Assembly (NCBI GenBank): GCA_036504055.1
Contig: DASXVU010000016.1
Location: 1-64,000, forward strand
Origin: Methanomassiliicoccales archaeon
Lineage (GTDB): Archaea > Thermoplasmatota > Thermoplasmata > Methanomassiliicoccales > UBA472
DNA length: 64,000 nucleotides
Reading direction: 5' to 3'
The stretch's first letter is position 1. Every line of letters begins with the position of its first letter. Shown one piece after another: positions 6,818 through 34,045 of the stretch. Below the pieces are notes generated by a model, which searched no databases, had not been told where the DNA came from, and saw only the letters and a list, made by a program, of their open reading frames with translations. The translations under genes were made by a program, and so were the position numbers.

Positions 6818-8260
6818 ATGGAGAAGATCAGACATAAAGAGAGGTTGTGGGCTGTTGCATTGATGGTGGGGATTTTCGTGGTCCTTTCTAGCATTGGCTT
6901 TGCTATGCTCCTGCAGAAGGAGAGAACGACCGGCGGCATGGATGTGCTGTGGAAGCAGACCGGTCTGGGAACAACGACCGACGGTGTCCAATGGATCAAC
7001 GATTCGGCGATAATCAACGATCAGAACGATAAGGAGATCCGGTGCATCGGTCCTGACGGATCGGTCGAATGGATTCATACTTACTCTGAGATCCATATGC
7101 TCATGGCGCGGGATGGGCACATCTGTTTTGCCGAGAACGAGGGCGGTATCACGTTCACCTGCTTGGATCGCAATGGATCGGTCGAATGGACCCGACCTGA
7201 CCCCTGGGTAAATGAGACGCCCATCAATCCCGTCAGTTCAACCTACGGATTGCCAGGTCTCGATGGGAACGTATATCTGTTCGGTCCCTCGGGCCGTTCG
7301 GTCCTTTGCGTCGACGGGTCAGGTTTCGATAGATGGGCCTTTACGGCGGACAACGGGGCCATCGGTTTACCGGTCATCTACTCCGATGGCACGGTATTGA
7401 TTGCTCATGTCATCACAAATGCCTCATCATTGAACTCCGGTCATCCCCAGCTCGGAAATGGGGAGGAGATCGTTGGTGAGGAGCTTATCCGGATATCACC
7501 GAACGGCACTGTCGATGGCCGATTGGAGATCCCAGGGTTCAGGGCCGATCTGCGCAATTCTTTTGATATCGCAGTCAACGGGACCCTCACCTTCAGCTCA
7601 TACAATTTCAGCGATATGACCGGCAGCGTCCTTGGCATATCCGAACATCTTGAGATAGTGTGGTCATCATCCTACAGCGATCTGAACGCCCCAGTCCAAG
7701 GCGAAGGGTCGATCGTGTATTATCTCGAGCACCATTCTGTCGAGATCGATTCCTCTGGGGGTCTGCATCATTTCACCACGTTGTGCGCTTATAACACCAG
7801 CAATAGCAGTCTCCTTTATAGGACGGATTTCTCCGGCACGTTCACCGGCGGGATCATCGTCAGCGGCGACACCGTCTTCCTCAGCGGCAACGACAAGGTC
7901 TGGGCGGTCGGACCGGATGGGGAAGCGCACATCGCTGACTCGTCAGGATGGGCCGTGTTCGGTCCATATGGGGGCGGCCTTCTTCTGTACGACGGGATCG
8001 GGATAAGGCAGATAGGGGCAACCGGTTCAACCGATTGGCAGTTCGACCTGGACAGCGGGACCATCAGGTCGCTTCACCTCAGTTCAGATGGCACGATAAT
8101 AGTGTATGCCAACGATGGGTTCACCGCCATCCACAAGCCTTCCATGTCCACCAACATGATATACATGGTCGGGCTGGTGGCGCTTGACCTGCTGGTCGTT
8201 CTCACGGCAGGGATATGGATATTGGATCGCTGGTCCGCAAAAGAGAGAGGGACACCCTGA
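6818..8260 (+). CDS. Membrane-anchored PQQ-like beta-propeller protein, copy 2
   Basis: Paralog of the protein encoded at 4815-6227, 480 residues. It has the same plan: N-terminal anchor (LWAVALMVGIFVVLSSIGFAM), a conserved TTGGMDVLW after the anchor (STGGMDLKW in copy 1), repeated propeller units (DGSVEWIH, NGSVEWTR, TGSTDWQF), and a C-terminal hydrophobic segment after a conserved AIHKP-S-STNMIYM stretch. The two genes have diverged broadly but keep their ends, which points to an old local duplication. The G+C-richer codon use of this copy compared with copy 1 is visible by eye. Function unknown. Confidence 0.77.
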   Translation: MEKIRHKERLWAVALMVGIFVVLSSIGFAMLLQKERTTGGMDVLWKQTGLGTTTDGVQWINDSAIINDQNDKEIRCIGPDGSVEWIHTYSEIHMLMARDGHICFAENEGGITFTCLDRNGSVEWTRPDPWVNETPINPVSSTYGLPGLDGNVYLFGPSGRSVLCVDGSGFDRWAFTADNGAIGLPVIYSDGTVLIAHVITNASSLNSGHPQLGNGEEIVGEELIRISPNGTVDGRLEIPGFRADLRNSFDIAVNGTLTFSSYNFSDMTGSVLGISEHLEIVWSSSYSDLNAPVQGEGSIVYYLEHHSVEIDSSGGLHHFTTLCAYNTSNSSLLYRTDFSGTFTGGIIVSGDTVFLSGNDKVWAVGPDGEAHIADSSGWAVFGPYGGGLLLYDGIGIRQIGATGSTDWQFDLDSGTIRSLHLSSDGTIIVYANDGFTAIHKPSMSTNMIYMVGLVALDLLVVLTAGIWILDRWSAKERGTP

Positions 8261-23419: not shown

Positions 23420-24140
23420 TGCAGTACAGGATCTGGCCATAAAGGCGGTCGGGCTCTCCAAGGAATACGATCTGAAATCCCATAAGGTGTTGGCGCTGAG
23501 GAATGCCAGCTTCGAGGTCAGGCACGGGGAATCCATTGCCATAAAGGGACCATCCGGTTCGGGCAAGACCACCCTGCTGACCATGATAGGTCTGCTGGAC
23601 TGGCCCACCTCAGGGAGCATAACCATTGACGGAGTGGACCTGACTAAGATCCACGAGAGCAAATTGCACGAGGTACGCCAGAAGAAGATCGGATTCGTTT
23701 TCCAGAGCTTCAATCTGATGCCATACCTCACCGCCGAGGAGAATGTCGAACTGCCAATGGAATTGGGCGACCTGACCCGGAGCCAAAGGAAGGAGAGGGC
23801 GCTGGAACTGCTCGGCATCGTCGGTCTGGCGGAACGGGTCGGGCACCGGCCCACCAAACTAAGCGCCGGCGAGCAACAACGGGTGGCCATAGCCAGAGCG
23901 CTGGCCAATGGGCCGTCGATCCTTCTTGCGGACGAGCCGACAGGGAACCTGGACTCGAAATCCAAGAAGGAGATAGTGAAGCTGTTCAACCGCCTGAGGC
24001 GGGAACAGGGCATGACCGTCATCATCGTTACACATGATGACAAAGTGGCGAACGACATCGGGAAGGTGATCCGGATGCGCAACGGGAGGCTGCTGACAGA
24101 AAAGGACCAGGAGTTCCTAGAAGACGAGAATGAAGAATAA
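23412..24140 (+). CDS. ABC transporter ATP-binding protein (MacB/LolD family)
   Basis: The 242-residue ATPase partner of the preceding permease. It has the Walker A motif GPSGSGKTT, Q-loop region FVFQSFNLMP, signature LSAGEQQRVAIARAL, Walker B ILLADEPTGNLDS and the His switch IIVTHD. The stretch NLMPYLTAEENVELP is typical of the LolD/MacB subgroup. ATG 23412 overlaps the end of the permease gene, giving translational coupling; upstream in-frame ATG would lie inside the permease. A convergent gene follows after about 140 bases containing a T-rich run (about 24221-24231) that may end transcription. Confidence 0.93.
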   Translation: MSDAVQDLAIKAVGLSKEYDLKSHKVLALRNASFEVRHGESIAIKGPSGSGKTTLLTMIGLLDWPTSGSITIDGVDLTKIHESKLHEVRQKKIGFVFQSFNLMPYLTAEENVELPMELGDLTRSQRKERALELLGIVGLAERVGHRPTKLSAGEQQRVAIARALANGPSILLADEPTGNLDSKSKKEIVKLFNRLRREQGMTVIIVTHDDKVANDIGKVIRMRNGRLLTEKDQEFLEDENEE

Positions 24141-24282
24141 GAACACTTTACGAGGCTGGAACCGTTCTAGTCGTCTCTCCGACAACCTACCCTCTTCCAG
24201 TCTCGGTCCGACCCGCCGATCGTTATTTTTGGGTCTATGCTTTCCTCGAGTTCCGATCGGTCGGCAGGGTCCACTTCCCCAA

Positions 24283-24651
24283 TTACTGGGTGTCCAGAGT
24301 AATGGTCGTTCTGTCGGCCAGTTCCTCCAGCTTTTCCAGATTGGAGATCACCTTTCCCAACGGCGTTACTGGACTGTAGGCCTCCGGAGCTTCTCCAGCG
24401 CTTGCCGGTGTGCGACCGAAGAATATGCAAAAGGCATTTCCTTCTGGCCAATAGGCGACCTCTCCCACCTCCATGATCTTCTTTCCCCGCTCAAGCTTGT
24501 CATGGACCGGTATCTCGAAGTAGATCTCTCCGCCCCAGACATTGATCTCTCTTTCCAAGGGCAGGGCCAGATAAAGTCCGTCGGCGGTGGTGGAATCGTT
24601 CAGCTCGATCACGAACTCGTCGTACCTGGTGCGCATCACTATCTTCGTCAA
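24283..24651 (-). CDS. Cyclophilin-like fold protein
   Basis: A 122-residue protein of the cyclophilin-like group represented by TM1367, common in archaea and bacteria. The segment ADGLYLALPLEREINVWGGEIYFEIPV, read in parts, and the GEVAYWPEGNAFCIFFGRTP stretch are characteristic; the second matches the substrate-channel strands of the family. No peptidyl-prolyl isomerase activity is established for these proteins. Translation starts at a TTG (24649-24651) preceded by GAGGTG, just behind a small zinc-ribbon gene on the same strand. Confidence 0.82.
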   Translation of the reverse strand: MTKIVMRTRYDEFVIELNDSTTADGLYLALPLEREINVWGGEIYFEIPVHDKLERGKKIMEVGEVAYWPEGNAFCIFFGRTPASAGEAPEAYSPVTPLGKVISNLEKLEELADRTTITLDTQ

Positions 24652-24660
24652 CCGAACACC

Positions 24661-24816
24661 TCACTTGATCTTGACGACCTTCACCGTGTATTCGATATCG
24701 ATGGTCAAGGGTCTTTTGCACCTTGGGCATGTCCTCTTAAGCGAGGACATGGAGATCGTCCACAGAGGCAGGTCCTGAGACCCCAAGGTCAGAGTGTGTT
24801 GACAGAAAGGGCACAT
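24661..24816 (-). CDS. 51-residue zinc-ribbon protein
   Basis: A short minus-strand frame from ATG 24814-24816 to TGA 24661-24663. It encodes 51 residues with two knuckles, CPFC at residues 2-5 and CPRC at 30-33, the spacing of a rubredoxin-like zinc ribbon, followed by a basic beta strand (LTIDIEYTVKVVKIK). The stop lies nine bases before the cyclophilin-like start with the downstream ribosome site between them, so they form a two-gene operon. Function unknown. The cysteine pattern and context support a real gene. Confidence 0.65.
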   Translation of the reverse strand: MCPFCQHTLTLGSQDLPLWTISMSSLKRTCPRCKRPLTIDIEYTVKVVKIK

Positions 24817-26163: not shown

Positions 26164-27891
26164 TCAGGCCGGGAAAACACCCGGAGATTCTATCTTCGTC
26201 GGGGTCTGAGGCTGGCATTCCTTCCCCCATCTGCACCGGCCCATGATGACGTCCTTCGACGGCTTTCCACCTGGCTGCATCGGCAGCACATCCTCCTCCG
26301 GGTCCACATGGATATCGATCAGGATCGGGACGTCCGATTTAAGACCGGTAACGAAAGCCTCTCGGATCTCGGACGGACGTTCAACCTTGATCCCGCCCGC
26401 CCCAAAGGCCTTGGCCAGCGCAACGAAGTCGGGGTTGATATGGAGGTCCGTTCCGGAATAACGCTTGTCGTTGAACAGCTTCTGCCACTGCTTGACCATG
26501 CCCAGCCATCCATTGTTCAAAAGGCAGATCATGACCGGCAGGTCCTCGTTCATCGCGGTGGCGAACTCATGGAAATTCATCTGGATGCTCCCGTCGCCGG
26601 CGATGTTGACCACCTGGTTCTCCCGGTGCGCATACTTGACCCCGAGGGATGCTGGGAAGCCGAATCCCATGGTCCCGAATCCTCCGCTGGTGATGAAGTG
26701 ATGCGCATGCTTGATCTTCAGCAGATGAGCCGCCCACATCTGATTCTGACCGACCTCGGTGGTGACATAGGCGTGCTCATTGAGGGCCTTTCCCAGCTCG
26801 TACATGACCTTCTGCGGCTTTATCGGCATCTCGCTGATGTCATTGTTGCACTCACACTGTTCATGTAGTTGCTTCATGCGGATTGACCAGGCGTTATCTC
26901 CCCTGGCACGTCCCAGTCCTTTGATCATCTGTTGAAGCCCCTTCTTGGCATCGCCGACCAGTCTGACCTTGGTGTGACTGTTCTTGCCCGCCTCCATGGG
27001 GTCGATGTCCAGATGAATGATCTTGACCGATTCTGGCAGTTCAGACGGCAGACCGGACGAACGGTCCGAGAACCTGGTGCCTATGGCGACCATCACGTCG
27101 CACTCCAGGAACGCCCTACGTGCTATCTCCCGTCCGTGCATCCCGATCATGCCCATGCTCAGGGGGTGCATCTCCGGTATGATGCCCTTGCCCATCATCG
27201 TGGTGGAGACCGGCGCCATGAGCATCTCCGCCAGTTTCATGACCTCCTGGCTGGCATTGGCCCACATGGCCCCGCCGCCGACCAGTAGCATCGGCCGCTC
27301 CGCATCCTTCAGCAGCTTGACCGCTTCCAGTATGCCTGAGAGGTCCTCGAACGGGGCCGGGACAGGGAATTCCTCCTCCATCGCCGCCTCGGTGATCTGA
27401 GCCTTCATGACGTCTGAAGGCAGATCGATATGGACAGGTCCCATGCGGCCGTTCAGTGCGATGCCCCAGCCGCGCTTGATGGCCTCCGGGATCTGTTTCA
27501 CGTCCAGTAGACGGAAGTTATGCTTGGTGATGGGCATCATCAGCGAGAAGACGTCCGCCTCCTGGAACGCGTTATTGCCGATCATGCCGGTGGGAACCTG
27601 ACCGGTGAGCACTATCATCGGAGCGGAATCAGCGTACGCTGTAGCCACTCCTGTGACCAGGTTGGTGGCACCTGGTCCTGACGTTGCCAGGCAGACCCCT
27701 GGTTTCAGCGTGGCTCGGGCGTACCCATCGGCCATGTGCGCGGCGCACTGCTCGTGGCGTACCAAGACGTGGTGTATGCTAGAATCGATCAGGTCATCAT
27801 AGATGGGCAACGCCTGCCCTCCAGGATAACCGAACATCACGTCCACGCCCTGCCTTTCGAGCAATGTCAAGACCGCTTTGGAGCCTTTCAT
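26164..27891 (-). CDS. ilvB: Acetolactate synthase large subunit, copy 1
   Basis: ThDP-dependent condensation of pyruvate to acetolactate (or acetohydroxybutyrate), the first common step of branched-chain amino acid synthesis. The 575-residue protein has the catalytic-Glu region VRHEQCAAHMADGYARA, the ATSGPGATNLVTG motif, and the ThDP/Mg motif GDGSIQMNFHEFATAMNEDLPVMICLLNN. It is closely related along its full length to the gene at 28118-29848, so the pair is a tandem duplication, and ilvC follows 74 bases downstream. No regulatory small subunit gene (ilvN/ilvH) is in the window. The ATG lies inside TTTATGAAAGG behind GGGAGAT. Confidence 0.95.
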   Translation of the reverse strand: MKGSKAVLTLLERQGVDVMFGYPGGQALPIYDDLIDSSIHHVLVRHEQCAAHMADGYARATLKPGVCLATSGPGATNLVTGVATAYADSAPMIVLTGQVPTGMIGNNAFQEADVFSLMMPITKHNFRLLDVKQIPEAIKRGWGIALNGRMGPVHIDLPSDVMKAQITEAAMEEEFPVPAPFEDLSGILEAVKLLKDAERPMLLVGGGAMWANASQEVMKLAEMLMAPVSTTMMGKGIIPEMHPLSMGMIGMHGREIARRAFLECDVMVAIGTRFSDRSSGLPSELPESVKIIHLDIDPMEAGKNSHTKVRLVGDAKKGLQQMIKGLGRARGDNAWSIRMKQLHEQCECNNDISEMPIKPQKVMYELGKALNEHAYVTTEVGQNQMWAAHLLKIKHAHHFITSGGFGTMGFGFPASLGVKYAHRENQVVNIAGDGSIQMNFHEFATAMNEDLPVMICLLNNGWLGMVKQWQKLFNDKRYSGTDLHINPDFVALAKAFGAGGIKVERPSEIREAFVTGLKSDVPILIDIHVDPEEDVLPMQPGGKPSKDVIMGRCRWGKECQPQTPTKIESPGVFPA

Positions 27892-28117: not shown

Positions 28118-29848
28118 TCATGACGGAAACACCTTGGGCGCCTCGATCTGTTTCGACGGCTGATACCCGCATTCCTTGGACCAGTTGCATCTGCTGCCCT
28201 TGATGACATCACGGCATCCCATCCCGCCTGGCTGCATCGGCAGGACATCCTCTTCCGGGTCCGTTAGTATGTCGATGATGATCGGCACTTCAGAGTCCAG
28301 CCCCCGGCGGAACGCCTCCTCGAGTTCGGAAGGCCGCTCCACCCGTATGCCGTCCGCACCGTACGCCTTGGCCAGTGCCACAAAGTCCGGGTTCAGGCCC
28401 ATGTCCGTTCCGGAATATCGCCTGTCGTTAAGCAGCTTCTGCCACTGCTTGACCATGCCTAGCCATCCGTTGTTCATCAGGCAGATCATGACCGGGAGGT
28501 CCTCGTTCATGGCGGTCGCCAGTTCATGGAAGTTCATCTGCAGGCTCCCGTCGCCGGCGATGTTGACCACCTGGTTCTCCCGGAAGGCATACTTGATTCC
28601 TAGAGAAGCTGGCAGTCCGAAACCCATGGTCCCAAAGCCGCCGGAACTGATGAAGTGGTGGGGATGCTTGATCTTAAGGAAATGGGCCGCCCACATCTGG
28701 TTCTGTCCGACCTCGGTGGCGACATACGCCTTTTCGTCCAGGGCTCTTGCCAGTTCATACATGACCTTCTGCGGTCTGATCGGCGTCTCGCCCATGTTCA
28801 GGTCGCATTCGCATTGTTCCCGCAGATGCTCCATCCGAAGCGACCAGGCGCTCTCTCCCTTGGCCCGGCCCAATCCCTTGATGATCTGCTGCAGCCCTTT
28901 CTTGGCATCGCCGACCAGTCTGACCTTGGTACGGTGGTTCTTACCCGCTTCCATGGGGTCTATGTCCAAGTGGATGATCTTGACCGTTTCTGGGAGATCT
29001 GAGGAGAGCCCAGAGGAGCGATCGGAGAATCTTGCACCGATGGCAAACATGACATCACATTCGAGGAAAGCCCTCCTAGCAGTCTCCCGTCCATGCATGC
29101 CGATCATGCCCATGCATAATGGATGCATCTCCGGGATGATGCCCTTGCCCATCATCGTGGTGGCGACCGGCGCCATGAGCATCTCCGCCAGTTTCATGAC
29201 CTCCTGGCTGGCATTGGCCCACATGGCCCCGCCGCCGACCAGCAGCATCGGCCGCTCTGCCGATCTGAGCAGTTTGACGGCTTCCAGGACTCCGAACAGG
29301 TCCTCAAACGGCTCGGGAACGGAGAAGGATTCGTCCAGCGCCGATTCGGTGACGTTCTCTCTCATGACATCCGATGGGATATCGATGTGGACCGGCCCCA
29401 TCCTTCCGTTCATCGCGATGCTGAAACCGCGTTTGATCGCCTCGGGGATCTGACCCGCGTCCAAGACCCGGAAGTTGTGTTTGCTGATCGGCATCATCAG
29501 CGAGAAGACGTCCGCCTCCTGGAACGCGTTATTGCCGATCATGCCGGTGGGAACCTGACCGGTGATCACGATCATGGGCGACGAATCCGCATAGGCGGTA
29601 GCCACTCCTGTGACCAGATTGGTCGCTCCCGGTCCCGATGTGGCCATGCAGACGCCCGGTTTACCGGTTGCCCTGGCATAACCATCCGCCATATGGGCGG
29701 CTCCTTGCTCGTGGCGTACCAGGACGTGGTGCATGCTAGAGTCGATCAGGTCATCGTAGATAGGGATGGTCTGAGCGCCCGGATATCCGAACATCACGTC
29801 CACCCCTTGCTTTTCCAGCAACGTCAACACCGCTTTGGAGCCTTTCAT
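28118..29848 (-). CDS. ilvB: Acetolactate synthase large subunit, copy 2
   Basis: A 576-residue homolog of the downstream ilvB, with the same catalytic motifs (VRHEQGAAHMADGYARA, ATSGPGATNLVTG, GDGSLQMNFHELATAMNED). The two proteins are co-linear with no large gaps. Many differences are conservative, and both keep the active-site residues, so both are probably active or form mixed oligomers. The C-termini diverge most (QPSKQIEAPKVFPS here, QTPTKIESPGVFPA in copy 1). It has its own promoter and leader, so the copies can be expressed separately. An ilvN-type subunit is not seen. Confidence 0.94.
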   Translation of the reverse strand: MKGSKAVLTLLEKQGVDVMFGYPGAQTIPIYDDLIDSSMHHVLVRHEQGAAHMADGYARATGKPGVCMATSGPGATNLVTGVATAYADSSPMIVITGQVPTGMIGNNAFQEADVFSLMMPISKHNFRVLDAGQIPEAIKRGFSIAMNGRMGPVHIDIPSDVMRENVTESALDESFSVPEPFEDLFGVLEAVKLLRSAERPMLLVGGGAMWANASQEVMKLAEMLMAPVATTMMGKGIIPEMHPLCMGMIGMHGRETARRAFLECDVMFAIGARFSDRSSGLSSDLPETVKIIHLDIDPMEAGKNHRTKVRLVGDAKKGLQQIIKGLGRAKGESAWSLRMEHLREQCECDLNMGETPIRPQKVMYELARALDEKAYVATEVGQNQMWAAHFLKIKHPHHFISSGGFGTMGFGLPASLGIKYAFRENQVVNIAGDGSLQMNFHELATAMNEDLPVMICLMNNGWLGMVKQWQKLLNDRRYSGTDMGLNPDFVALAKAYGADGIRVERPSELEEAFRRGLDSEVPIIIDILTDPEEDVLPMQPGGMGCRDVIKGSRCNWSKECGYQPSKQIEAPKVFPS

Positions 29849-30015: not shown

Positions 30016-30147
30016 ATTCGCCACGGATCTCCGATGGATATCTGCCCTTTCCAGTCGGACGAGTCTGTTATCTAAGTTAAGTAACGGATTAATACCTCCC
30101 TGGGATTATTGCGATCGTTGTCTCAGACAGGTTGTTCGGACGCGATC

Positions 30148-30711
30148 ATGATGGTTGACCACGATCCATTGTGGTCGGTCTCCTTTGCTTTAGAGGCATC
30201 ACTGATAAAAGAAGCTCTGGCCGATATACATCCAACCGTCGTGCACATCGGAAGCACGGCCATCCCGGGGATCTGCGCCAAACCGATCATAGACATCATG
30301 GCGGGAGTGGATGATATGAAGGATTGCAGGATAGTATCCAGCCTGGAAAAGATAGGCTATATTTTCCAACCGGATGCGGGCGAACCGGACAGGCTCTTCT
30401 TCAGGAAGGGAGCGACCAGAACCCATCATCTTCACGTTGTGAACATTCATTCTTGGACCTATTCGAGACATCTGATATTCCGTGACTATCTGCTCACGCA
30501 CCCTTCCATATGCGTTCAATACGGTGAGCTTAAGAGGGCTAGCGCGGAGAAATACCGATTCGACCGTACTGCATACACAAATTCGAAAACTGAGTTTATC
30601 GATTCGGTGTTGAGGACGGCAACAGAGATAGCATTTATTAAAGTCAGTGGGCAATATGCTCAGGAGAACGTTTCTCACCCACTGTGTGAATCAGATGTCC
30701 TACGACGTTGA
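30148..30711 (+). CDS. GrpB-like (UPF0157) nucleotidyltransferase-fold protein
   Basis: A 187-residue protein of the GrpB/UPF0157 family, related to nucleotidyltransferases. The hallmark HIGSTAIPGICAKPIIDIM (read as GST-x-(8)-Asp-x-Asp-like motif, about residues 33-51) and the HHLHVV motif near 105 are present. Family members occur alone or fused to dephospho-CoA kinase; their reaction is not known. ATG 30148 begins the conserved MMVDHDPLW region, while a TTG at 30109 would add 13 unconserved residues. The 3' end overlaps the LuxE-like start, so the two genes are probably co-transcribed. Confidence 0.82.
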   Translation: MMVDHDPLWSVSFALEASLIKEALADIHPTVVHIGSTAIPGICAKPIIDIMAGVDDMKDCRIVSSLEKIGYIFQPDAGEPDRLFFRKGATRTHHLHVVNIHSWTYSRHLIFRDYLLTHPSICVQYGELKRASAEKYRFDRTAYTNSKTEFIDSVLRTATEIAFIKVSGQYAQENVSHPLCESDVLRR

Positions 30712-31969
30712 GTCCATCTTTGCCGCTGCATCAACGAGCACGATGCTCAACGACCCACACGTCTCCAGGATGTGGGAACTGATGAACGACACTTCATTGT
30801 TCTCCATGGCCCCAGAGAAACTGGAGAAAATGAGGTTAGAATGCGTTCGTTCATCGCTGGACTTCTTCCGACGAAGGAGCTCCCTGTACAGAAGGATGAT
30901 GGACGATATCGGTATCGTTCCGCAAAAGGCGGGCATCCAAGACCTGGCAAGATTGGCGGTTCCTTCTGATGTCCTGAGAGGGGATGGACATCGTGATCTG
31001 CTCATCGAGGATCATGAGCCGGGAGGTCGCTTCCTCAGCTCCAGCGGGACGTCCAAGAGGGAGCCGGTCAAGGTATACCGCAGTCCGCTGGACCTGGCAA
31101 TGATGGTCCTCGGAAACACGGCTGTACTCGGATATGTGACCGACAACCAGTTCAAGCATGGTCAGGGCATCGGCATGTTCATGGGACCGGAACAGCTCAG
31201 CGGAAAACTGACATTTGTCGTGATCGTGGAGTCTGCACTGGAAAGAAAGGGAATGGAGATCGTCTGGGGAATGGATATGGATGGAGAGGGTACCGGAACT
31301 GTGTGGAACAAAATGGTCCCAAACCGGAACAAGATGGCCCGATTCTTCAAGAGCGACCAATCCCCCAAGATGTTCTTTACGGCCCCGATAGGGCTCCATC
31401 TCCTAAGCCAAAGATTCAGTTCCCAAAAGAGTGCCGTAAGATTCCTCAGCAAGATCAAGATCGGTGCACCGCCCATTGATCTAGGGAAGGGAGGGTTCGT
31501 CACGACTGGTGGGGGAATGAAGGATTTCACCGATCTGCCTGAACTCAATGAGATCATCAGGGCGTCCAAGGGTTTTTTCGTGTCCAAGGACGCGCAGGGC
31601 AACGTCCGCGAGACCCCATTTGTGGATGGGCTGGGGATGACAGAGACCGCTACGATCATGATGGATCGCTTTGGCGTCATGGACAAGGTGCCGCATCCGC
31701 TTTCTCAGGTATTCCTGATGGATCCCCGCACCTTTGAGGTGATAGAGGAGGATGGGAAAGAAGGTCTGCTGGGCATCTTCAACCCATTCGTCACGTCATG
31801 GATGGAGTGTGTATATCCTGGCGATATCGTTACCGCCCACCGGTCGGACCGATATTATGGGAGGGAGTACGTGTTCGTCCGCAGGATGGGGGCCTCTAAG
31901 GCTGTCGGTTCCACGAGGGCTTGTGGAGGAGAGTTGGAGGAGCACATCGAGCGCAATGTGATGGTCTGA
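30695..31969 (+). CDS. LuxE-like acyl-protein synthetase
   Basis: About 424 residues of the LuxE acyl-protein synthetase family, related to ANL adenylating enzymes such as phenylacetate-CoA ligase. The bacterial enzyme activates a fatty acid as acyl-AMP and passes the acyl group to LuxC. The ATP-binding motif LSSSGTSKREPVKVYRS lies at about 114-130, and VDGLGMTETATIM near 310-322 is the second adenylation motif. Start 30695 (MSYDVESIFAAAS) overlaps the GrpB-like gene by 17 bases; an ATG at 30656 is an alternative. A LuxC-like acyl-CoA reductase gene follows. No luciferase (luxAB) or thioesterase (luxD) gene is present. Confidence 0.78.
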   Translation: MSYDVESIFAAASTSTMLNDPHVSRMWELMNDTSLFSMAPEKLEKMRLECVRSSLDFFRRRSSLYRRMMDDIGIVPQKAGIQDLARLAVPSDVLRGDGHRDLLIEDHEPGGRFLSSSGTSKREPVKVYRSPLDLAMMVLGNTAVLGYVTDNQFKHGQGIGMFMGPEQLSGKLTFVVIVESALERKGMEIVWGMDMDGEGTGTVWNKMVPNRNKMARFFKSDQSPKMFFTAPIGLHLLSQRFSSQKSAVRFLSKIKIGAPPIDLGKGGFVTTGGGMKDFTDLPELNEIIRASKGFFVSKDAQGNVRETPFVDGLGMTETATIMMDRFGVMDKVPHPLSQVFLMDPRTFEVIEEDGKEGLLGIFNPFVTSWMECVYPGDIVTAHRSDRYYGREYVFVRRMGASKAVGSTRACGGELEEHIERNVMV

Positions 31970-32135
31970 GGAATGGGCCCATCGGTCCCTGTTCTCTTTC
32001 CTCCGATATTTTTATCCGTTGATACATAAATCATACGCCGGAACGGTTCCTGACAAGTGCATCATAAGGGCAGAGACCGAGTGAGCGGTTTGGTCAATCG
32101 CTTGTAATCCTGGAACGTCCCATCGGGGTATCTAG
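31970..32135 (+). promoter_or_regulatory. Promoter region of the LuxC-like gene
   Basis: 166 bases with no gene. A T-rich stretch (about 32007-32012) after the LuxE-like stop may end transcription, and a TATA-like GATACATAAATC (about 32020-32031) could start a separate luxC transcript with a leader of roughly 85 bases ending in GGGGT before the ATG. Confidence 0.4.
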
Positions 32136-33614
32136 ATGGCGATAGAACCGTATTCAGGACAAGAGCTTGACACCAGCACGGAAAACGGCGGCGGGGTCTC
32201 GGTCAAAGTGATCAATAGGGGCGGCTTGGACCAATTCTTGGCACGTTCCCGTTCGATCCAGGAAAGGCTACTGTCCATACCGGTCCTGGACCGCATTCAG
32301 TTGGCGGGCCGTTTGGGGGATAAGCTGACAGAGCGCATCGACCAGGGAGACCTCCAGGAACTGATGGTCGACCTTTCCGATTCCACTGGCTACTCAGAAA
32401 GGCTGATCGAGGGCGAGCTAGCCTTCATTCCCTCGTTCCTTTCTTCGGAGAACATGGCGAGGTGTTTCAGCGCCTCGCTGGTCGGGGCACCCTCTAGCCT
32501 CGACGGGTTCACCGAGATCAACTGCAACGAGTCCATATGGCATCTGCCGGCCGGACCTTCTATGATCGTGAGCTCCGGCAACTCGATCATCCCGACCGTT
32601 GTCCCTACAATGATATCCCTTCTGTCGGGGAACGCCACCTTTCTAAAACCGTCCTTCTCTAACTGCGCGGGAGTTGTAGAAATATTCCGTACTCTGGATC
32701 GATTACCCGCTGGTATTGCCAGAGACGCCATGAGGGAGGCCTTGGCCATCAGCTACTATCCTCACGACAGCCCGGTGCTGAAATATGCCCTGGGCCAGGC
32801 AAAATTTGGTGTGATCAACTTCTGGGGAGGGGGAACTGCCAGGGCTTCAATAAAGAGACTGGTCACGGAGAATCCGAATCATCCGCGTTTCTTTGTGAAC
32901 GGACCGATGACCGGCGCCATACTCATCGACACCGAATCCGCGTCCAACCATAACGCCGAAAGCCTGGCATTGAACATCGCTCTGTATGACCAGCAATTGT
33001 GTTCGTCACCGACCATAGTCGTTTTCACCGGCGAGGTCGACCGGGCGTTCGAGTTCGCCAAAGGAGTGGCGGCAAACATGGAAGGGATCGGCTCGACAAT
33101 GCCGATGAAAGAGGACGTAGTTGATGATTATTCCCTTCACGGTGCCCGTAGGTACCTGCACATAACGGGTTCCAGGATACTTCATTCATCTTCACTGGCC
33201 AATCCTTGGACCATAGTTATCTCTGATCAAAGAAGCATTCTGGACGAAATGGTCCTGAGATTCCCGACCATGAATTTCCATGGAAGAAAGAGGTTCATCG
33301 AGATCATCGCCGTCGACTCGCTTGAAACAGGGATAGAGCTCTTGGATGTGCTTCCGAAATCAAAGGCGTTCGAAGGGATTGACAGGGTTCAGACGGTGGG
33401 CATCGCTCTCGCCGAAAGCAAGATGGAACAAGCCCTGCGTGAATTGGCGCTGAAAGGTGTGTTCCGAACTGTTCCATTGCGGGGAATGGCAATGCGATCC
33501 TCAATAGAGCCATACGATGGCACCGCCTTGCCTACACTCTTCACGTATACGTCCTACGTAAGGAAAAAAGACATCTTTCCTAGCGGTCAGATCAATGATG
33601 TCTTCCAAGCCTAA
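32136..33614 (+). CDS. LuxC-like acyl-CoA (fatty acyl) reductase
   Basis: A 492-residue member of the LuxC acyl-CoA reductase family (aldehyde dehydrogenase fold), which reduces an enzyme-bound acyl thioester to aldehyde with NADPH. The segment LPAGPSMIVSSGNSIIPTVVP (about 138-158) begins the nucleotide-binding core, FWGGGTARASI follows near 229, and the predicted catalytic Cys is residue 289 in YDQQLCSSP, close to the active-site Cys of Vibrio LuxC. It pairs with the upstream LuxE-like gene. Because archaeal membranes use isoprenoid ethers, the acyl substrate is an open question; branched or short-chain acyl groups or an imported fatty acid are options. Confidence 0.85.
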   Translation: MAIEPYSGQELDTSTENGGGVSVKVINRGGLDQFLARSRSIQERLLSIPVLDRIQLAGRLGDKLTERIDQGDLQELMVDLSDSTGYSERLIEGELAFIPSFLSSENMARCFSASLVGAPSSLDGFTEINCNESIWHLPAGPSMIVSSGNSIIPTVVPTMISLLSGNATFLKPSFSNCAGVVEIFRTLDRLPAGIARDAMREALAISYYPHDSPVLKYALGQAKFGVINFWGGGTARASIKRLVTENPNHPRFFVNGPMTGAILIDTESASNHNAESLALNIALYDQQLCSSPTIVVFTGEVDRAFEFAKGVAANMEGIGSTMPMKEDVVDDYSLHGARRYLHITGSRILHSSSLANPWTIVISDQRSILDEMVLRFPTMNFHGRKRFIEIIAVDSLETGIELLDVLPKSKAFEGIDRVQTVGIALAESKMEQALRELALKGVFRTVPLRGMAMRSSIEPYDGTALPTLFTYTSYVRKKDIFPSGQINDVFQA

Positions 33615-33781
33615 GCCCGAATTATTGAGTGAAATTCAGTCTCATCTTTCTATCTCTCCCAAACAGGTCCTGGTGAATACTAATCGGCATAATGTGGTTT
33701 CGGAGTAGCCAATATCTCATCCATATTTCGAAAAGTATATATTCACTCGAGAACCGATATATTGTGCACAGGGGGAATATA

Positions 33782-34045
33782 ATGGCAGAGAATGTGGCAT
33801 TTAGAATTCAGGTGATGGATACGATCGCAGCTTTGATGACCGCCGCGTTCGGACTAATAGCGGCATTGGCTTGGAACACGGCCATAGCGGATGCAGTGGC
33901 GCAGGCATTTGCCAAACCTGGTGACAAGTTGATGGGTGAATTTGTCTACGCAGTGATCGTCACGATACTGGCAGTTTTGGCTGTAGTATTGATTGGCAGG
34001 GCAATAGCAAAGCTCAAGTCAAAGGTCGCGCCTGAGAAAAAGTGA
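33782..34045 (+). CDS. Small two-helix membrane protein (DUF5654-like)
   Basis: An 87-residue protein with two hydrophobic segments (about residues 12-30 and 53-75, the second FVYAVIVTILAVLAVVLIG) separated by a short loop and followed by a basic tail. It resembles small archaeal proteins grouped as DUF5654; the match is from memory of the pattern and is moderate. A clear TATA-like AAAAGTATATATTC (33732-33745) and the ribosome site GGGGGAA ahead of ATG 33782 support expression. Function unknown. Confidence 0.68.
   Translation: MAENVAFRIQVMDTIAALMTAAFGLIAALAWNTAIADAVAQAFAKPGDKLMGEFVYAVIVTILAVLAVVLIGRAIAKLKSKVAPEKK

Follow-up and report, generated by a model that had tools for sequence, protein, structure and literature searches.

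A LuxE-like and LuxC gene pair in a Methanomassiliicoccales archaeon: a probable altered member of an archaeal LuxE-LuxC-SDR gene set

Among the known systems closest to the genes considered here is the fatty acid reductase that luminous bacteria form from LuxC and LuxE (structure 7xc6; Pfam families PF05893 and PF04443). In this enzyme an acid reacts with ATP to form an acyl-AMP, the acyl group is taken over as a thioester by a cysteine of LuxE (Cys364, the acyl transfer site of the P. phosphoreum protein), passed to a cysteine of LuxC as a second thioester, and reduced with NADPH to the aldehyde (PMC8301110). Here a LuxE-like gene and a LuxC gene are described that lie side by side in a Methanomassiliicoccales archaeon (assembly GCA_036504055.1, contig DASXVU010000016.1, positions 1 to 64,000 of the forward strand); these 64,000 nucleotides are referred to as the window, and positions are counted within it. 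On balance the pair is judged to be a two-protein, ATP- and NAD(P)H-dependent carboxylic-acid reductase, to which an extended short-chain dehydrogenase/reductase (SDR) normally adds the step to an alcohol, with the window copy being an altered member; we regard this reading as probable, though well short of certain. Within the open-licence literature, archaeal LuxE or LuxC is mentioned only as LuxE-domain proteins of ammonia-oxidising archaea (PMC11442133), and, as judged from that literature, the archaeal LuxE-LuxC-SDR set appears to be previously undescribed.

The LuxC gene (32136–33614, plus strand) encodes a LuxC-type acyl reductase of 492 amino acids which is a member of PF05893, scoring 112 bits against a gathering score of 21 (E 4e-32). 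In a profile search of the PDB, the only family matched was that of the LuxC chain 7xc6_A (3.8e-17). The AlphaFold model (predicted local distance difference test, pLDDT, 91.8) likewise places 7xc6_A, the LuxC of the LuxC-LuxE complex, first in a fold search (template-modelling score, TM, 0.77, E 2.7e-20), while the best aldehyde dehydrogenase match is weaker (E 1.4e-17, TM 0.65-0.69). The predicted catalytic Cys289 (33000–33002, plus strand), set in YDQQLCSSP, aligns with YDQQACFS of 7xc6_A, and the motif QQxCSS is present in all 53 LuxC rows of the alignment. An earlier note on this DNA, made from the letters alone, had read two consecutive open reading frames (ORFs) here, with SSSGTSKREP in the first and Cys289 in the second, and had called the latter LuxC-type; the frames and motifs are as described, and LuxC fits better than the aldehyde dehydrogenases in both searches.

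The preceding gene (30695–31969, plus strand, ATG at 30695) encodes 424 amino acids and is predicted to be an acid-activating, AMP-forming acyl-protein synthetase of LuxE type, sharing 45–49% identity with its relatives. It carries SSSGTSKREP, of which SSGT (residues 116-119, S116 S117 G118 T119; 31040–31051, plus strand) is the adenylation motif, and the A5-like adenylate-binding motif GMTET (residues 314-318; 31634–31648, plus strand); both are invariant in the family. An alignment of 24 LuxE-like relatives compared with PDB profiles matches LuxE 7xc6_E at 4.5e-5 and the phenylacetate-CoA ligase PaaK at 2.8e-3. Comparison by hhalign with canonical PF04443 LuxE proteins of the same order gave 4e-19 over 352 columns, the RGC cysteine region included, and three canonical LuxE sequences gave 5e-15 to 6e-16 over ~345 columns. 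Cys410, in RACGG (31922–31924, plus strand), is the predicted acyl-acceptor cysteine: it aligns with the canonical RGC, itself matched in alignment by KGC364 in the LuxE of P. phosphoreum, and R[AGS]C is found in 52/52 LuxE-like rows. On sequence comparison we call the protein a member of a divergent archaeal LuxE-like clade and not of PF04443. The possibility raised earlier, that the two proteins might score better as PaaK or as ordinary aldehyde dehydrogenases, or that their motifs might not be conserved, was not borne out; sequence profiles favour LuxE and LuxC, and the adenylation motif, Cys410 and Cys289 are kept throughout the family.

The two genes belong to a larger unit. About 25 relatives and 27 loci of other archaeal groups have LuxE and LuxC side by side in this same order, which excludes a chance pairing. 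Neighbour clustering places an extended SDR (PF01370) directly 3' of luxC wherever the readable DNA of a relative within Methanomassiliicoccales extends past luxC (23 of 23), and the same holds for 27 of the 29 loci outside the order. The partner SDR keeps the catalytic S and YxxxK and resembles the solved extended SDR 3wj7, labelled 'putative oxidoreductase' (2.7e-48), which we take to be the Gluconobacter carbonyl reductase Gox2253. The three proteins also vary together, their pairwise identities being correlated (LuxE with LuxC 0.905, LuxE with SDR 0.835, LuxC with SDR 0.843). Relatives in the window's family have, after the SDR, a gene for a UbiA prenyltransferase and then a divergent radical-SAM gene. 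Losses within that family delimit the unit: in one genome (G004) only the N-terminal 41 residues of LuxE are left, fused to the C-terminal 48 residues of the SDR, a deletion scar; a second (G007) has lost LuxE and LuxC, and what is left of its SDR, between grpB and UbiA, is truncated at the 5' end and interrupted by two in-frame stops (locus L171, about 7102-7653); and in a third (G014) the trio is cleanly missing, with no scar. As the UbiA and radical-SAM genes are still present in all three, the functional unit consists of the trio, and those two are mere neighbours, rejected as pathway partners.

High-scoring LuxC and LuxE homologues occur in about 25 of 150 Methanomassiliicoccales genomes, and among 390 sampled genomes of the phylum there are 12 carriers, each of them a member of this order. 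When 84,980 species were scanned with the LuxC alignment, 48 loci came up, every one of them archaeal; the patterns were built from an archaeal alignment, so that more distant bacterial relatives would escape them. Unlike this alignment scan, a single-sequence scan of genome contigs gave no matches. The carriers belong to Methanomassiliicoccales, Methanomethylicota, Brockarchaeota, Nitrososphaeria, Odinarchaeia, Sulfolobales, Thermofilales, Zestosphaera and Methanofastidiosia. A bacterial relative on plasmids was considered and set aside, its LuxC being only about 25% identical and no LuxE being found with it. The earlier note had proposed surveying other archaea for the pair and the genes beside it, and dating a transfer from bacteria: the pair does recur. 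Three things had escaped the note: that the pair represents an archaeal family found in several phyla and not a single stray acquisition, that the usual unit has a third gene, the SDR, absent here, and that the window LuxE is an outlier. Across phyla, mean identity is 0.63 for LuxE as against 0.45 for LuxC, and this stronger conservation of LuxE suggests that one specific acid may be used. A bolder version would make the trio an archaeal route from acid to alcohol whose single substrate is ancient and has stayed the same across phyla, from which the window copy has been re-purposed for a new acid with the aldehyde as output; this we hold only tentatively, as a possibility on the doubtful side of even.

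The window copy departs from this pattern. The pair is adjacent, yet the SDR is not directly downstream, which makes it a derived member of the LuxE-LuxC-SDR cassette. At the site that holds the SDR, UbiA and radical-SAM genes in relatives of the same family, the window has only 33615–33790, in which a scar of the SDR was looked for and none found, and the other two genes are likewise traceless. The window genome (99.9% complete) holds no ortholog of the SDR, the best match being 9e-25, whereas carriers give 1e-156 to 1e-164, and it lacks a UbiA of the cassette-neighbour family as well. A canonical LuxE encoded elsewhere in this genome (contig C27, about 23431-24792, L101/L102; PF04443, 81 bits) was considered as a stand-in and rejected, being of a different lineage and without a LuxC-sized ORF alongside. 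Next to it come an ORF of 325 aa and a further protein, which by eye look transglutaminase-like and CDGSH-like, respectively, and LuxE proteins similar to this copy occur in other genomes of the window's family.

The change in the window pair is concentrated in LuxE. Its end branch in the tree measures 1.65 (median 0.083), compared with 0.85 for LuxC (median 0.17). Among 110 LuxE columns that are at least 98% conserved in the 51 other archaeal rows, the window protein is altered at 28, and any other row, when left out in the same way, is altered at no more than 4, while the window LuxC is altered at 2 of 53 conserved positions. The altered LuxE residues cluster at 144-180 and near FTAP-G (232), TGGG (270, 277) and GMTET (310, 312, 319, 321), regions which, by analogy with ANL enzymes, probably lie next to the acyl pocket; Cys410 and the adenylation motif are retained. 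Where this LuxE belongs in the tree is uncertain: a group with two rows alone (G006 and G002) is rejected (p 0.005), and a group with a nine-row same-family clade is not (p 0.33).

From the motifs and their known counterparts we infer the following course of reaction. The LuxE-like protein would convert a free acid and ATP to an acyl-AMP, from which the acyl group would move to the C-terminal Cys410; it would then pass to Cys289 of LuxC, where NAD(P)H would reduce it to an aldehyde. Where an extended SDR is encoded next to the pair, as in most carriers, it may reduce this aldehyde, or a carbonyl derived from it, to an alcohol. In the window genome, which lacks the SDR, the aldehyde may itself be the output or may be handled by an unrelated reductase, and LuxE, as the acid-selecting protein, would most likely have been reshaped for a different acid. 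A fatty acid as the LuxE substrate is not established, and finds no support in the analysis.

Several results weigh against this reading. The Pfam LuxE model PF04443 has no match to the window protein, and with 24 relatives only one reaches even 0.003 (best E 0.0032). A Foldseek search with the LuxE-like model lists PaaK and acyl-CoA ligases first and LuxE 7xc6_E outside the top 50, therefore fold alone does not settle between LuxE and PaaK; the C-terminus of the model is weak (pLDDT below 50 from residue 399). The LuxE-type identity put forward in the earlier note is upheld by profile comparison and the acyl-cysteine motif, and is not visible to Pfam or to the fold search. In addition, LuxC occurs in the genomes of two other archaea (loci L105 and L148) that have no SDR ortholog; at L148 no LuxE was found, and at L105 the LuxE is ordinary, so that loss of the SDR need not cause a change in LuxE. 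Lastly, the trio has been lost in several genomes of the window's family, and the fast change of LuxE may reflect selection relaxed ahead of such a loss.

This last point leads to the strongest rival, that the chemistry is unchanged and the window copy is merely decaying, selection having been relaxed after loss of the SDR and LuxE drifting towards loss. The window copy does have the longest branches of the trees, and the SDR, UbiA and radical-SAM genes are already missing from its locus. However, both ORFs are full length with intact catalytic motifs, the GC content by codon position of the pair is coding-like, and LuxC retains 51 of its 53 fixed positions, the change being concentrated in LuxE and not common to both proteins. 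A changed acid is favoured over drift because general decay would be expected to affect LuxC too, and decay is considered rather unlikely.

A further rival takes the LuxE-like protein to be a PaaK-like acyl-CoA ligase, such that the acid would be converted to an acyl-CoA and then to the aldehyde. PaaK-type ligases are the top fold matches of the model, and the protein has weak NCBIfam as well as PDB scores to PaaK. Profile comparison, on the other hand, favours LuxE over the full length, three PaaK sequences matching at 8e-7 over 172 N-terminal columns (a less diverse set, effective number of sequences, Neff, 1.3), and the C-terminal cysteine motif is fixed in all rows; a ligase is considered improbable. 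That the neighbouring UbiA makes a prenyl ether of the cassette's alcohol, for instance towards the unusual butane- or pentanetriol tetraether backbones of the order, is very unlikely: at 13 loci of the order the SDR is succeeded by UbiA, with the radical-SAM gene next, and Methanomassiliicoccus produces butanetriol tetraethers (PMC13003381), but UbiA is kept in same-family genomes without the trio and in further trio-less genomes of families f5 and f6, is missing from the window genome that retains LuxE-LuxC, and is not beside the trio in other phyla, and Bathyarchaeia, reported to make such lipids (cited in that paper), are not among the 48 carriers by title.

The surroundings of the pair place it at the same locus as in its relatives, with ilvC, ilvB and grpB upstream and DUF5654 and GAPDH downstream. 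The GrpB-family gene (30109–30711, plus strand; PF04229, E 6e-47), encoding a nucleotidyltransferase-fold protein, overlaps the start of the LuxE-like gene, as the earlier note had indicated, the overlap being 17 bases, and also precedes luxE at this locus in five relatives of the window's family. Between luxE and luxC lies a gap of 166 bp (31970–32135), in contrast to relatives, where the genes overlap or are within about 45 bp of each other. Further upstream, adjoining ilvC, two tandem acetolactate synthase (ilvB) paralogues are encoded on the other strand (26164-27891 and 28118-29848). The absence of luxA, luxB and luxD claimed earlier holds among the neighbouring genes of the window and of the relatives' loci, no genome-wide search for luxAB having been made. 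Elsewhere, six Methanomethylicota loci (L113, L116, L117, L118, L144, L151) encode, beyond the trio and in its direction, a small glutaredoxin-like protein and a ferredoxin-thioredoxin-reductase-like protein (by eye).

Archaeal membranes are built from isoprenoid ethers, and the conservation of a putative acid reductase driven by ATP in several phyla with such membranes implies an unnamed archaeal acid, aldehyde or alcohol. The family is invisible to the Pfam LuxE model. The window copy, altered at 28 otherwise fixed positions, offers a natural contrast for locating specificity residues, and the scarred losses indicate that the unit is dispensable and thereby open to a metabolite comparison of carriers and non-carriers.

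Compared with the reductase of luminous bacteria, the archaeal pair shares the LuxC fold with its YDQQxC context, the LuxE adenylation motif, the C-terminal acyl-transfer cysteine and the adjacency of the genes. It differs in having no neighbouring luciferase or luxD, in the gene order E-C, in the usual extended SDR partner and in a LuxE missed by Pfam, with 16% identity in the LuxC fold alignment. The canonical PF04443 LuxE-LuxC clusters of other Methanomassiliicoccales (L183, L187-L192; L027, L028) also have adjacent genes and R[AGS]C, but are a separate lineage whose LuxE scores 100-177 bits to PF04443. They represent a second LuxE-LuxC lineage in the same order, found for example in families f6 (L028, L183, L187) and f2 (L027, L189, L191); the LuxC of L027 is fused to a PaaK-like domain, and that of L028 is followed by a FabG-like SDR. 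PaaK phenylacetate-CoA ligases share the ANL/PaaK fold with the LuxE-like protein, although their profile match is weaker and N-terminal only, and the archaeal gene, unlike theirs, is paired with LuxC. Finally, the extended SDRs HpnA, SdmB and OleD have the PF01370 fold and give the best NCBIfam scores of the partner SDR, which falls far under their curated cut-offs and adjoins LuxE-LuxC instead of hopanoid, sterol or olefin genes.

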